This document shows, piece after piece, positions 45,526-63,929 of a DNA stretch of 64,000 nt (the stretch's first letter is position 1; each line of letters opens with the position of its first letter). A program made the translations under genes and the position numbers. Source of the DNA: a virus. Below the pieces are notes generated by a model. The model did no database searches. It had not been told where the DNA came from and worked only from the letters and a program-made list of their open reading frames with translations. The stretch is from the IMG/VR virus record IMGVR_UViG_3300020448_000003, positions 1-64,000 of that record; one strand, given 5' to 3'.

Positions 45526-45781
45526 TATTTTTTACAATCTCTTCAAGTTTATTTAGTCTGTAAAACAAAGCGTCAAAGACTTCTACCAGATTACTATAAG
45601 CTGATTCACCAGGTATCTTATACTTGTACATATTGGCACCACGTGCTAGTAGGTTCTCGTGATTCTTCACTTGTGTGGCAAGATTCTTTATACTCTCAGC
45701 AATAATTAACTTTTGCCACTCATCTTCTTCCTCCTTAGTCTTAAACTCAGGTATTGCGTTATAGTTGATGTTAGGATCCAT
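45506..45781 (-). CDS. Small helical protein (91 aa), hypothetical
   Basis: The product is 91 residues, mostly helix, with a long heptad-like region (about 20-85, ending in LFYRLNKLEEIVKNS). It overlaps the 1136-residue gene by 20 bp and abuts the 2OG oxygenase gene (TAATG). It probably forms a coiled coil that attaches or trimerises a neighbouring structural protein, but that is inference from position only. Confidence 0.65.
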   Translation of the reverse strand: MDPNINYNAIPEFKTKEEEDEWQKLIIAESIKNLATQVKNHENLLARGANMYKYKIPGESAYSNLVEVFDALFYRLNKLEEIVKNSASVPD

Positions 45782-46335
45782 TAGAAGTAATTTAGATTTA
45801 GAACGACTCTATTTTGTGTATTCGTACAGGATGTACCGCTATGAGGTGTATTGACAGGAAAGGTAACTAAACGGTTCGCCTTTGATTCCACCTCTTCACC
45901 TGTACCAAAAAAGGTATAACCATCATTATCATTTAGATAGAATATACCAGTAGTAGCACCAGCAAATTCATTTTCTCCATAGTTACCGACATCAGTATGC
46001 AGTTCATACCTTACCAGTTCCTTCGTACGAAAGTTTAGGTTTGCTTTAACTCTTATTATAGCACGAGGTTTAATAGTATTCAATAAAGGCAATACAGCAT
46101 CGTATGCACTACTCGTAGGTACACCATTCTCATATAACGTGTTAGTTAGTTGCCAGTTATCTAATTCATTCTCCTTTAGTTCTTCATATACAATACTCGC
46201 CACGTGAAACACTTTAGTCGAGACATACCAAGGAATATCCCCAGATAACATATATTCACGTAGGTTACAGAACTCCTGCTCCTTCATAAAGTTATCGTAT
46301 ATTTGTACTTTAGGTGTAAATTTCAGTAATTCCAT
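45781..46335 (-). CDS. 2OG-Fe(II) oxygenase family protein (184 aa)
   Basis: The double-stranded beta-helix signature is intact: H113-T-D115 in ELHTDVG, the distal His165 in NTPHSGTS, and Arg176 in NRVVLNLNY for 2-oxoglutarate binding. The length fits the compact prolyl-4-hydroxylase-like phage family. Such enzymes hydroxylate proteins or small substrates in the cytoplasm; the substrate here is unknown. It lies directly upstream of the tail block, within an operon reaching back to the NlpC/P60 gene. Confidence 0.85.
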   Translation of the reverse strand: MELLKFTPKVQIYDNFMKEQEFCNLREYMLSGDIPWYVSTKVFHVASIVYEELKENELDNWQLTNTLYENGVPTSSAYDAVLPLLNTIKPRAIIRVKANLNFRTKELVRYELHTDVGNYGENEFAGATTGIFYLNDNDGYTFFGTGEEVESKANRLVTFPVNTPHSGTSCTNTQNRVVLNLNYF

Positions 46336-48243: not shown

Positions 48244-48894
48244 TCAAAAACAGTTAAACGTCAAGGTTAATCGGTTCGGTGTACTGTTTAATTCAAAACC
48301 TCGTGATAGGTTACTAGGGAATATTAATATATCGCCTTCCGATGTTGGTATGTCCTGAGTAAGGTTATTAAAAGGCGTTATTTTTTCGTGTTTTCCCTGC
48401 ATAATGGGATAATGTGGGGAACCGATTGCCCGATTGAATTTAAGAGGACTATGTTTATCTGGTAAGAAATTTATAAAATAACAACCTGAGTATAAAACAT
48501 TGCTCTGTTCGTGGGGTGCATACATCGATTCTGCTCCAGCAACCTCAATAATGCTATCCGCAAATTGGATTTCCTGGAAGTTTTTCCACTCATAGCAATA
48601 TGATTGAGAATTAACCTCAAATACTGCTTTTTGTATGGTCTCCTTAATGGTAGCAAGTGCCTGATGTTCTAATATGGCATTATCCCCTAATTGCGTTATA
48701 TTGTAGCATATAGACGTTTTTGGGGATGGGATGCAAGTTTTAGGATCAATTTGATCCAAAAAGTCAACTAGGATTGCTTTATGTTCATTATGTTTTTTGT
48801 TTGTATATTTTCCTATAGGAACCATAAACAACCCATAAACCGATGTATCCGTTACTGATTGCGTTAGATTATCCGATAGAATAGACTCATCCAT
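48244..48894 (-). CDS. Degenerate 2OG-Fe(II) oxygenase-like protein (216 aa)
   Basis: The second half follows the phage 2OG oxygenase pattern: APHEQSNVLYSGCYFINF, then EGDILIFPSNLSRGF, then NRLTLTFN. The iron ligands are not intact. The HxH/HxD motif is H128-E-Q130, and the distal His (normally in a PSxLxH motif) is Arg198. The 2OG Arg208 remains. It therefore seems unlikely to bind Fe(II) in the usual way and may act as a binding protein or have lost activity. It has its own consensus promoter upstream and the HNH gene downstream. Confidence 0.7.
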   Translation of the reverse strand: MDESILSDNLTQSVTDTSVYGLFMVPIGKYTNKKHNEHKAILVDFLDQIDPKTCIPSPKTSICYNITQLGDNAILEHQALATIKETIQKAVFEVNSQSYCYEWKNFQEIQFADSIIEVAGAESMYAPHEQSNVLYSGCYFINFLPDKHSPLKFNRAIGSPHYPIMQGKHEKITPFNNLTQDIPTSEGDILIFPSNLSRGFELNSTPNRLTLTFNCF

Positions 48895-60004: not shown

Positions 60005-60202
60005 TTATTCCTCAACGTGTTTTAAGTATAACAGATCACACATATTATTGATAATCTCCATTGAGTGATTAAACTTATCATCATCAATAATATTATTGTG
60101 ATGTTTCTCGTGAAGTTTACCTATAAACATCCCAAGTGATTTCTTGAGTATCTGTTTACCTTCTTCATCTATTATTTGTGTCTTTAGTCCTATCATTGTC
60201 AT
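60005..60202 (-). CDS. Small helical protein (65 aa), hypothetical
   Basis: The product is 65 residues, helical (LKKSLGMFIGKLHEKHHNNI, then SMEIINNMCDLLYLKHV). It overlaps the preceding oxygenase gene by 4 bp, so it belongs to the same operon. Not recognised. Confidence 0.6.
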   Translation of the reverse strand: MTMIGLKTQIIDEEGKQILKKSLGMFIGKLHEKHHNNIIDDDKFNHSMEIINNMCDLLYLKHVEE

Positions 60203-60873
60203 AATAGAGGTATGAGAGAAAACTGATCGTCAGGTAGATCAGGTTGCGTATGTATATCATAACCTAAAGTAATTCGATTTCCAGAATAGTTTTCATTTAC
60301 ACATACTTTATGTTTCCTATCCCAACCAGGTCCAAAATAGATGTTACCTACCTCGTTCTTGATTTCATATCTTACATTTGTATTAGGGTCGTGAAACTTA
60401 GTAATTGAATCTTTTGGGTCAATACTTACATATCCGTGGTAATCAAATTTATGATCGTGCCAGTTCAATACTTGATCTGGTTTGTGCATATTCATCCAAC
60501 ATTGAAACCATAATGGTTCATCAGTATTTAGAGTTGTCCTTACTACTGTCCGAATATCACGATACAATAACCAAAATAGTGGGGATGGACTTGTTAATGC
60601 AAATAGATTATAGAACCGATAACCACTAAATCCTTCACTCATATTATTTAAAAACTCTTTATCCTTCTCGTGCTGTTCTTCTACATTGAATATGTCAGGT
60701 AGAGAACCAACTGTTAACTCTCTACTTGTTAGTGATGAATCAAAACCTGTAAATGTCTGTTTAAATTGTCTATATGATCTACCTAGTTGGGCGATCATCT
60801 CTTGACTCTCGTGTTCGACTGCTGGTGATCTGTAGAGAACCCAATCATCACCTTCGGTTACTTTGTATGTCAT
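60199..60873 (-). CDS. 2OG-Fe(II) oxygenase-like protein (224 aa), array member 6
   Basis: The candidate metal triad is complete: H139-D-H141 in NWHDHKFDYHG, distal His188 in WDRKHKVCV and Arg200 in NRITLGYDI for 2-oxoglutarate. HxH in place of HxD occurs in some phage members. An N-terminal region of about 130 residues has no clear motif. It overlaps the next upstream oxygenase by 4 bp. The substrate is unknown. Confidence 0.75.
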   Translation of the reverse strand: MTYKVTEGDDWVLYRSPAVEHESQEMIAQLGRSYRQFKQTFTGFDSSLTSRELTVGSLPDIFNVEEQHEKDKEFLNNMSEGFSGYRFYNLFALTSPSPLFWLLYRDIRTVVRTTLNTDEPLWFQCWMNMHKPDQVLNWHDHKFDYHGYVSIDPKDSITKFHDPNTNVRYEIKNEVGNIYFGPGWDRKHKVCVNENYSGNRITLGYDIHTQPDLPDDQFSLIPLL

Positions 60874-61526
60874 TGTGGTTTGTATGCTGTAGAGGGGTCG
60901 TCAGGTCGCTTTGAAGCGATGTTTAAATTTACTACTGGTCGGTAGGTTCCAACTGGTAGCGTGGAACTGTGAAACAGGTCGCCCTTAAAGGCAACTGCTC
61001 TGCCTTTCTTGGGTGGTATCTGCATCTTTACTGACCACTTATCATCCTTAACTTGTTTTATATAATCATCAGGGTCTTGTGTCCTCTGATTGTAGATAAC
61101 TGTGTCGCCATTTGAGTCATCCATATAATATATGACATTCCAACTGTCATCAACATAACTGTCAACGTGTGGTAATTGTACTTGATTTTTATACCAAGCG
61201 GGAGTGCAATTCACTCTCATTCTTAACAAACATTCTGCTTTTAATTTTTCTCTAAATTGTAATGCAAGTGGCATAAAAGCGTTACATAAGGTTGATAATT
61301 CTCCCTGTTCTATTTCATACAAATAATGGAAATTACAAAATCCATTGCGAGGGTCATTTTCAAATAAATCTGATATTGCTCTATCTTTTCTATGCCATCT
61401 TAAATCTGGATTATTGATGCAATCTAACAACCAGTTTTGATATACTTCTGGTATTACATCTTCAAAAATAATAACATCCTGATCTAGTGAATGTTGTTTA
61501 AAAGGATTGTTAACTGTTAGTTTCAT
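60870..61526 (-). CDS. 2OG-Fe(II) oxygenase (218 aa), array member 5
   Basis: The core is intact: H120-V-D122 in LPHVDSY, then WNVIYYMDDSNGDTVIYNQ, distal His186 in DLFHSSTLP and Arg196 in YRPVVNLNI. This is a typical prolyl-4-hydroxylase-like phage oxygenase. The start codon overlaps the previous stop (TAATG). Confidence 0.85.
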   Translation of the reverse strand: MKLTVNNPFKQHSLDQDVIIFEDVIPEVYQNWLLDCINNPDLRWHRKDRAISDLFENDPRNGFCNFHYLYEIEQGELSTLCNAFMPLALQFREKLKAECLLRMRVNCTPAWYKNQVQLPHVDSYVDDSWNVIYYMDDSNGDTVIYNQRTQDPDDYIKQVKDDKWSVKMQIPPKKGRAVAFKGDLFHSSTLPVGTYRPVVNLNIASKRPDDPSTAYKPQ

Positions 61527-62155
61527 TATGTATAGTAAGGGGATGAGTTTATCATTGATTGTTCATATTGTATTTCTTTAGATGCTGCTTCCCAAGGTGC
61601 TGCTAACATCGGTCTTCCATCCCATTTGTTTTGTTTATATTTTCCTTCTTGATCTACATAAGAAACAAATGCTTGGATCTGTAGATCCCCTGTATATTTG
61701 GGTCTCCAATGAAAATCTTTATGTCCCCTAAAGATAATCATATCGCCCTGTTCCAACAATATTTGATGTGATTTACCTTCTAGTTCGATATAAAATGGCC
61801 AATCAACATTGTCTCTGGTGATACACACATTTGCAACCCATTCACCGCTTGTTCTGTCTCTGTGTCGTACTAAATTTGTTCCCTTAACATATACTCTAGC
61901 GTAACTAAATGTCTGCCATAATTTACATTTAACAGTATCCTCTACCATCGGTTTGATTGTTTGACCCATTGCTTCAAAACATACTGGCGAATACATTGCA
62001 AAGGCACCTGGCATTATAGGGTCGCTAGTAGGTCCTTGTGATGAGTATTCAACAACATCTTTAATCATCATATATTCTATTTTAAGTTGTTCACAAGTCT
62101 CTTGTGAGAGTGCATTGCGAATAACATATAATTTATTTTCAGATAATACTTCCAT
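61526..62155 (-). CDS. 2OG-Fe(II) oxygenase (209 aa), array member 4
   Basis: H98-R-D100 (VRHRDRTSGEW), then GDMIIFRGHKDFHWRPKYTG with the distal His149. This RHxD...HWR pattern is a distinct, widely spread 2OG subfamily; the usual 2OG-binding Arg after the distal His is not evident in QAFVSYVDQEG. Overlaps the previous gene by 1 bp. Confidence 0.8.
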   Translation of the reverse strand: MEVLSENKLYVIRNALSQETCEQLKIEYMMIKDVVEYSSQGPTSDPIMPGAFAMYSPVCFEAMGQTIKPMVEDTVKCKLWQTFSYARVYVKGTNLVRHRDRTSGEWVANVCITRDNVDWPFYIELEGKSHQILLEQGDMIIFRGHKDFHWRPKYTGDLQIQAFVSYVDQEGKYKQNKWDGRPMLAAPWEAASKEIQYEQSMINSSPYYT

Positions 62156-62784
62156 TAATGTCCTTGACCAAAGAATACTATAGTTAATCGTGCATCAGAT
62201 GAGTTTGTACCATAGAAGTTTTGACCTCCGTGATATTTTCTACCATCAAATATGATACACCTATTATAGCGTGCCTGTACCTTAATTGATTCATTAAAGT
62301 AACTGTTGCACTGCTCTTTATATTTATCAAATACTCTAATACCCTCTGTACCTTGTGCTTCCATTGCCTTATGGAACTCTTCTTCATAATCTTCCATTTG
62401 AGGACCTTTAGGTACATCATATATTGTTGTTCCTGTGTCTTGTTTGTATTCTTTATTCAAGTAAATAACTGCACCTATTCCTAGGTGGTCGTCATCAGTA
62501 TGAATCCATCCACTATTACATTCTCCTGTACTAATATGAAAAGCTGCGTCTGCTATATGTAAATGAGTAAATGCTGGAATATACTTAATAATTTTACTAC
62601 ATATTATTTCGTGAAATATAGGGTCAGTATCATTAATTAATCTACTGCGTTTACCTGGCCAGTACCCTCTGTTAGGGTGTTCAGTACAAGTAAAATATTC
62701 CTGTTGCTGTGCGTTAGCATACACAAGACTAGGTGTCTCAAAGAAATTATCTACTACTATAGTTGGTACTATTTCTTCAAACAT
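62155..62784 (-). CDS. 2OG-Fe(II) oxygenase-like, DUF6445-type (209 aa), array member 3
   Basis: H95-T-D97 in GWIHTDDDHLG, followed by a hydrophobic strand (IGAVIYLNKEY), distal His185 in GRKYHGGQNF and Arg199 in ARLTIVFF. The layout fits the DUF6445 group of 2OG-like phage proteins. Overlaps the preceding gene by 8 bp. Confidence 0.75.
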   Translation of the reverse strand: MFEEIVPTIVVDNFFETPSLVYANAQQQEYFTCTEHPNRGYWPGKRSRLINDTDPIFHEIICSKIIKYIPAFTHLHIADAAFHISTGECNSGWIHTDDDHLGIGAVIYLNKEYKQDTGTTIYDVPKGPQMEDYEEEFHKAMEAQGTEGIRVFDKYKEQCNSYFNESIKVQARYNRCIIFDGRKYHGGQNFYGTNSSDARLTIVFFGQGH

Positions 62785-63325
62785 AATTAAAATTAATTAC
62801 CACTCTCTTGTTATGGTATAAAGGGCAAGAACTAGCGTGATAGGTAGAACCATCAAAGATAACAACACTACCTTTCTTTGGTTGTACTCTCTTCTCGACC
62901 TGATTATTCTTGTTAAAGAATACAGTATCGCCATCAGATTCATTGACATAATATAATCCTACTTTATGTGGTACATCTGCATCGATATGTGGTTGATTAT
63001 AACCTATACCAGTAGGTAAAAGCAACCCACCCTTAATCCTCAGTAACTCAAAATTATCTTCCTCTACAAATGATAATAGCAATGGTAATATAAACAAATA
63101 ATGCTTTGACATTATGTCCACACCATCAGGTTTATGATAAAACATATGAGCAAATCCTGGTGATCCTTTGGCATCAGGGAACTCTACTCTTTTTGGATCG
63201 TCATTCTCTCCATTGAGAGCATAAGTTATGTCATCAAGAAAATGCCAATCAAATTCAAGAGATAGCATCATCTTCTCTATTTGATCTTGATACTTTTTAG
63301 GAATAACGTTGTTAATGACTTTCAT
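62777..63325 (-). CDS. 2OG-Fe(II) oxygenase (182 aa), array member 2
   Basis: Compact and complete: H113-I-D115 in QPHIDADVP, strand LYYVNESDGDTVFFNKN, GSVVIFDGSTYHASS with the distal His163, and Arg174 in KRVVINFNYV. Overlaps the previous gene by 14 bp. Confidence 0.88.
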   Translation of the reverse strand: MKVINNVIPKKYQDQIEKMMLSLEFDWHFLDDITYALNGENDDPKRVEFPDAKGSPGFAHMFYHKPDGVDIMSKHYLFILPLLLSFVEEDNFELLRIKGGLLLPTGIGYNQPHIDADVPHKVGLYYVNESDGDTVFFNKNNQVEKRVQPKKGSVVIFDGSTYHASSCPLYHNKRVVINFNYV

Positions 63326-63929
63326 AATTAACCGATAGAACTATTCTATCCTCGTTGGTTTTGTTAGGTTGAGTTTTATGTTTTAACCAACCAGGAAATA
63401 CCAATACATCATTTGTTTGTACTGGTATCTCTTTCCAAATATTCTGTGCTGGTTCTTGGGGTGTACCAAACCTGTGGTATTCAAGTGGGTCTCTAACTAA
63501 GAAATTACCTGACCCCTTCGGTGCTTTCAAGTAACAAGAAATTACCAAGGGTGATGGTGAATGTAAATGTTCACCTGTGTAACCACCACGTTTGTGTATA
63601 TTTACCCAACTCTCACGTGGATATATTCTCATATTATCGAAGTATCCCCAAGATGTCCAGATGGGTACAATTTGTTGATGAATAATATAAAAAAACTTCT
63701 CTAAACATTCCCAGTTATGTGGTGCATAACTCTCTAATGAATGTGATGCTGTAGAGAAAGCATTACCATTTTCTATTCTTGAGTTTGTCCCTGCCTTATC
63801 TAATATAGAACCCACATCAAACTGTAGCGAACCCTCACTCTCATATTCAAAATTATAATTTAATTTATAGAGATAATTAGGTGTAATCGCTAATGGTTTT
63901 GGTGGGTCAGGAGTGACAACAACTTTCAT
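63312..63929 (-). CDS. 2OG-Fe(II) oxygenase-like (205 aa), array member 1
   Basis: H121-L-H123 in YTGEHLHSPSPLVISCYL, distal His184 in PGWLKHKTQP and Arg195 in DRIVLSVNY. An HxH variant of the phage family, with the WLxH pattern that is lost in the degenerate protein at 48244. Overlaps the gene entering from the window edge by 1 bp. Confidence 0.85.
   Translation of the reverse strand: MKVVVTPDPPKPLAITPNYLYKLNYNFEYESEGSLQFDVGSILDKAGTNSRIENGNAFSTASHSLESYAPHNWECLEKFFYIIHQQIVPIWTSWGYFDNMRIYPRESWVNIHKRGGYTGEHLHSPSPLVISCYLKAPKGSGNFLVRDPLEYHRFGTPQEPAQNIWKEIPVQTNDVLVFPGWLKHKTQPNKTNEDRIVLSVNYESH

Follow-up and report, generated by a model that had tools for sequence, protein, structure and literature searches.

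We analyzed the first 64,000 bases (hereafter the window) of a 99,008-bp viral contig, IMG/VR record IMGVR_UViG_3300020448_000003; positions beyond the window continue its numbering along the contig. The structural genes of the window match those of marine T4-like cyanophages of the P-RSM6, S-SZBM1, P-TIM40, and S-WAM1 group. Near the end of the window, six intact minus-strand open reading frames (ORFs) occupy positions 60199-63929 and overlap by 14, 8, 1, 1, and 4 bp, which confirms the coordinates and the 1-14 bp overlaps reported in a first-pass annotation, where they had been described as an array of 2-oxoglutarate (2OG)-Fe(II) oxygenase-like genes. We named them A to F in the order of transcription. 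Oxygenase A (63312-63929, 205 amino acids (aa)) is of the PF13759/phrog_81 type (Pfam E 3.6e-15) and carries an HxH-H-R set of site residues; B (62777-63325, 182 aa) is of the PF13640/phrog_274 type (Pfam E 2.5e-6; phrog_274 E 3e-41) with HxD-H-R; and C (62155-62784, 209 aa) belongs to the DUF6445 family (Pfam E 1.6e-14), also with HxD-H-R. Oxygenase D (61526-62155, 209 aa) falls into phrog_2954, labeled "ferrochelatase," and combines RHxD and HWR motifs with a PHD2/P4H-like predicted fold; E (60870-61526, 218 aa) is of the phrog_274 type (E 1.1e-29) with HxD-H-R, and F (60199-60873, 224 aa) matches phrog_2696 (E 3.3e-41) and phrog_81 (E 4e-8) and has HxH-H-R.

Judged from their metal-binding residues and from sequence profiles or, for D, the predicted fold, all six are predicted to be 2OG-Fe(II) oxygenase-type proteins. 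The Pfam cut-offs were passed by A (PF13759), B (PF13640), and C (DUF6445); E fell just under the cut-off, with 15 of 19 members of its family matching PF13640, F was weak in Pfam, with 3 of 20 family members matching PF13759, and D had no Pfam match. Sequence-only searches of the PDB with the profiles of D, E, and F returned no matches. The HxD or HxH motif and distal histidine noted in the first-pass annotation are near-invariant in all six families (41-74 non-redundant homologs each), A and F having HxH and the others HxD. The site residues are H121xH123/H184/R195 in A (near-invariant, 71 homologs), H113xD115/H163/R174 in B (invariant, 59 homologs), H95xD97/H185/R199 in C (near-invariant, 74 homologs), H98xD100/H149 in D (invariant, 66 homologs), H120xD122/H186/R196 in E (invariant, 61 homologs), and H139xH141/H188/R200 in F (invariant, 41 homologs). 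The 2OG-binding arginine, found about 10 residues past the distal histidine, had been said to be present in most members, and it is present in A, B, C, E, and F; the exception is D, which has the invariant residues R87 and R151 instead. A structure prediction was run for D. The AlphaFold2 model, built from 61 aligned sequences, is confident (predicted local distance difference test (pLDDT) 94; predicted template modeling score (pTM) 0.90), and Foldseek returned 711 PDB matches at E ≤ 1e-3, the top ones being 2OG oxygenases that include PHD2 and P4H. With the prolyl hydroxylases PHD2 and Pseudomonas P4H, D shares the predicted fold and the HxD-H metal site, but it is 10-19% identical to them in the fold alignments and lacks the canonical 2OG arginine. 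The double-stranded beta-helix fold was thereby assigned to D by AlphaFold2 and Foldseek, to A, B, and C by Pfam, and to E and F by sequence profiles only. PHROG families 274, 2954, and 1644, which cover B, E, D, and C, bear the names "DNA endonuclease V," "ferrochelatase," and "minor coat protein"; these names have spread through phage records, and on motifs, Pfam, and fold we judged them to be wrong.

A tree built from 73 oxygenases, in which most families are highly supported, places each window gene beside its orthologs in Syn9, S-CREM1, and metagenomic phages. The Syn9 orthologs are gp45 (A), gp51 (B), gp52 (C), gp54 (D), gp53 (E), and gp47 (F), and S-CREM1_72 is the S-CREM1 ortholog of A. 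The only clear pair within the array is B and E, which share 30% identity, the best of any pair, and are old paralogs. The tree and the identities together rule out recent tandem duplication of one gene and bear out the earlier view that the genes are not recent copies.

The six genes stand as an array, but as one part of a larger block that runs past the window edge, and the first-pass annotation missed the main clue lying there: a tail-fibre protein and a halogenase at the head of the block. All the upstream genes, from a heme oxygenase to the tail fibres, are on the minus strand, as is the array. Directly upstream of A is the heme oxygenase (contig 64069-64614); the 139-bp gap between the two reads as one more small ORF. 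Further upstream lie the small protein sm44 (64614-64922), U7084, a protein of predicted dUTPase fold (64919-65755), a VirX1-type halogenase (65712-67364), U1787 (67415-67933), a Gly-rich tail protein that we refer to as Gly (67943-68743), and two tail-fibre genes (68791-69648 and 69676-73251). The heme oxygenase occurs at the head of the array only in a subset of relatives and is a possible source of Fe(II). Gly consists of 31% glycine and 2% proline, with a longest GXY run of 6 among the sequences listed, and has conserved His, Asn, Ser, and aromatic residues; its S-CREM1 copy carries the name collagen-like. The genes of the block are under purifying selection, with ratios of nonsynonymous to synonymous substitution (dN/dS) of 0.07-0.40 wherever dS was estimable, values that are rough, given the saturation of dS in A and several other estimates above 1. 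The halogenase is a full-length relative of the cyanophage flavin-dependent halogenase VirX1 (PDB 6qgm, E 1e-141), here set within a tail-linked module, and its GxGxxG flavin adenine dinucleotide (FAD) motif, WxWxIP motif, and catalytic lysine are invariant. VirX1 was reportedly described by Gkotsi in 2019 as a broad-substrate biocatalyst, and it is not known to have an assigned natural substrate.

U1787 ends in a C-terminal tail that contains tryptophan in most members from the full block and has the motif PxWxRYxGWxGY in many. This raises the idea that U1787 is a precursor akin to a ribosomally synthesized and post-translationally modified peptide (RiPP), whose tail would be modified by the halogenase and the oxygenases. 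The absence of the tryptophan terminus from several distant U1787-like proteins at loci without U7084, and the position of U1787 between Gly and the halogenase in the loci checked, would agree with such a role. However, the tail motif differs by clade (WxRYxGW, AWDPWVDNW, or PAWNHLPE), the N-terminal part of U1787 falls within a broad family of phage proteins (phrog_1787 and others), and no protease, exporter, or leader-binding domain was recognized; we consider a RiPP-like precursor quite improbable.

For U7084, a model of a 71%-identical relative (pLDDT 89) resembles trimeric dUTPases, with 28 PDB matches at E ≤ 1e-3. A nucleotide-binding dUTPase relative would suit a system for the modification or repair of phage nucleic acids or nucleotides, with AlkB/TET-like oxygenases, and DNA repair has been proposed because some cyanophage oxygenases are encoded next to uvsY and uvsW. 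The dUTPase match is nevertheless partial (target TM about 0.65, query TM about 0.3), a sequence-profile search of the PDB with U7084 returned no dUTPase, the top fold matches of D include the protein hydroxylases PHD2 and P4H, and the module lies away from replication or repair genes. We regard a nucleic-acid role as very improbable.

To follow the block across phages, we built hidden Markov models (HMMs) of its families, fetched IMG/VR loci by four queries (halogenase, D, Gly, and U7084), annotated them, and removed redundancy by shared 31-mers, which left 132 IMG/VR clusters; these derive from the best 80 loci per query and from HMMs seeded from this block. Where a Gly-centred cluster extends far enough downstream, Gly is followed by U1787 in 43 of 43, by the halogenase in 40 of 40, by U7084 in 39 of 40, by at least one oxygenase in 35 of 36, and by at least three in 27 of 27. 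U7084 has the halogenase as its upstream neighbor in 39 of 40 clusters. Runs of at least six oxygenases occur in 48 of the 132 clusters, the longest comprising 12, and some apparent pairs of halogenases may be split ORFs. In a set of 50,697 phage records, Gly and U1787 each match 20, on the same accessions, and these records also hold the 20 best halogenase matches, at adjacent positions, as well as U7084 in 14 cases; the 20 named records amount to about ten distinct phages, many being duplicates. In relatives of the window, one or two extra proteins of 229-239 aa, weakly similar to U7084 (hhalign probability 41 for the 229-aa ones), stand between B and C at the loci L108 (7986-9355), L111 (7425-8144 and 8692-9393), and L091 (8669-9358). 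In some phages (L113, L115, L121, L127, and others), D is followed by a second set on the opposite strand, which comprises as many as three additional halogenase ORFs, oxygenases, and a further U7084.

Orthologous arrays are found in other marine phages, and the array type is not unique to this contig. Oxygenase runs number 10 in Syn9, 9 in S-CREM1, 6 in S-RIM44, and 3 in Sf-FR1, and reach 12 in metagenomic phages, so the earlier statement that single or paired phage oxygenases are known understates what is on record. Syn9/Syn10 (gp38-gp54) and S-CREM1 (ORFs 67-80) share the order Gly, U1787, halogenase(s), U7084, sm44, oxygenases and have orthologs of all six window genes. The window array has six oxygenases against ten in Syn9/Syn10 or nine in S-CREM1, without the G46, H48, and JmjC-type members, and differs from both in ending D-E-F and in the heme oxygenase inserted before A. 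The array is a reduced relative of one long deposited in Syn9; what is new is the conserved tail-linked block. An array with a halogenase linked to a Gly-rich tail protein was not found in the open-access literature, nor was a bacterial counterpart (SapC, TonB, or DUF6065 with a halogenase).

We then scored the T4-type late promoter motif [AC]TAAATA within 70 bp upstream of each gene, as a percentage of clusters. It precedes TF285 in 87%, TF1191 in 75%, Gly in 61%, and U1787 in 60%, the halogenase in 30% and sm44 in 28%, and the array oxygenase families in 0-7%. On the present contig, the 47 bp that separate Gly from the gene ahead of it contain an exact TATAAATA (68780-68787). With one mismatch allowed, the overall frequency of the late motif was not above that in shuffled sequence; the signal lies in its position. 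Scans for sigma-70 promoters and terminators were uninformative, the count of sigma-70 promoters not exceeding that in shuffles. Because the same-strand genes overlap and the motifs lie before the tail genes and almost never before the oxygenases, the simplest reading of the sequence suggests that the array is transcribed late, from the tail-gene promoters.

2OG oxygenases are common in cyanophages, with ten reported in S-CREM1 (PMC9964418), nine in S-SZBM1 (PMC9146016), and 24 in S-SCSM1 (PMC9602691), and published roles comprise DNA repair, modulation of 2OG/NtcA, protein or lipid modification, and general host reprogramming. Host proteins or metabolites could be the targets, as in the published auxiliary metabolic proposal (Sullivan et al. 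2010, PMC3037559), for example through a lowering of 2-oxoglutarate that tunes NtcA and nitrogen or energy metabolism. Burning 2OG does not require as many as 12 divergent families, each conserved in its own right, and an early metabolic role is ill-suited to strict tail-gene linkage and late-type promoters; we find this explanation improbable.

A further published precedent is the S-SSM6a/S-SSM7 cluster (PMC7824862), which likewise has a halogenase and several 2OG oxygenases, together with JmjC-like proteins, in a host-recognition region, and from which Iyer et al. (2021; PMC7824862) predicted a halogenated metabolite or glycan decoration. By analogy, the present enzymes could produce a small molecule bearing halogen and hydroxyl groups or decorate host surface glycans, yielding a toxin, a signal, or a superinfection barrier. 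In S-SSM7, the halogenase adjoins carbamoyltransferases and sugar enzymes, and glycan genes occur in the host-recognition cluster of phages of this kind. That halogenase is distant from ours, however (28%), and its cluster has no detectable Gly-U1787 pair, whereas the linkage to the tail protein and U1787 is strict at our locus and in the 20 close named records. No carbamoyltransferase, sugar enzyme, HemK-like methylase, or core synthase was recognized among the genes of this block, which therefore lacks the marks of an S-SSM6a-type cluster, and the late-promoter pattern points to assembly time. We hold this alternative to be unlikely.

Six divergent oxygenase-type genes are best read, as first proposed, as a multi-step or multi-target modification system. 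We lean tentatively, with a little less than even confidence, toward a tailoring module that acts late and adds halogen and hydroxyl groups to a tail-fibre protein. Good support for the module itself comes from fold and metal residues, gene order, co-occurrence, the promoter-motif pattern, and purifying selection. We infer a tail protein as the substrate because it is the constant non-enzyme partner, because no nonribosomal peptide synthetase, polyketide synthase, or other core biosynthetic enzyme was recognized among the module genes viewed, because the timing looks late, and because a set of different oxygenases together with a halogenase would fit action at multiple sites of one protein or a few. 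The six genes would be the downstream half of a late operon, conserved in marine T4-like phages and ordered as tail fibres, the tail-tip-like Gly, U1787, halogenase, U7084, small protein, heme oxygenase in some, and 3-12 oxygenases, and transcribed from T4-type late promoters ahead of the tail genes. During tail-fibre assembly, the halogenase and oxygenases would add halogen and hydroxyl groups to different side chains, most likely of Gly, each oxygenase family perhaps acting on its own site or residue type. U1787, or its Trp-containing C-terminal tail, may serve as a chaperone, docking site, or alternative substrate, and in this lineage the heme oxygenase may free Fe(II) for the oxygenases. 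The arrangement in Sf-CH11, which lacks Gly and has its halogenase and oxygenases flanked by a structural protein on one side and a LamG-fold protein on the other, speaks for tail-protein tailoring.

Several observations weigh against tail-protein tailoring. Gly and its nearest relative share 97% identity, as against 54-84% for the oxygenases, so the enzymes and their putative substrate are not diverging in step; the difference could reflect recent exchange or strong constraint. A collagen-like substrate was rejected on the proline content and short GXY runs of Gly, and prolyl hydroxylation of the collagen type is therefore inapplicable. The predicted fold of U7084 hints at a nucleotide, the distant halogenases of Syn1, S-MbCM6, and S-H35, which occur without Gly, are not located near tail genes, and a modified tail protein is not reported in published open-access virion proteomes. 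The surrounding region has been named a host-recognition cluster in pelagimyophages (PMC7029224), and because this cluster also holds host-surface modification genes, neighborhood alone does not fix the substrate.

Elsewhere on the contig are three further oxygenase genes: one of 184 aa on the minus strand at 45781-46335 (phrog_274 type, E 6e-44), an oxygenase-like gene of 216 aa on the minus strand at 48244-48894 (phrog_81 type, E 2.3e-17), and a third at 81145-81708. Among the baseplate genes of the window, a single ORF of 7141 amino acids (17302-38727) presumably encodes a giant structural protein. A cellular origin of U7084 was considered and rejected, the genome scan having returned only a 3.6-kb Prochlorococcus single-cell contig that carries the module and a contig labeled Nonlabens xiamenensis. 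The latter (NZ_RMVE01000006.1, 188 kb), part of a bacterial assembly, is 98.3% identical to cyanophage P-TIM40 over the 20.8 kb checked and is probably a contaminating phage genome.

The 2OG oxygenases of cyanophages, whose purpose has been obscure, are usually classed as auxiliary metabolic genes. Co-occurrence, fixed order, and promoter pattern tie them and VirX1 to one tail-fibre protein, which makes their role directly testable. It is possible, if on balance doubtful, that marine T4-like phages devote 1-2 VirX1-type halogenases and 3-12 oxygenases to the post-translational halogenation and multiple hydroxylation of their own Gly-rich tail-fibre protein or its U1787 partner, and that this is the natural job of VirX1. 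If so, these phages would chemically diversify their receptor-binding parts after translation, and the module would be an example of enzymatic halogenation on a virion protein.

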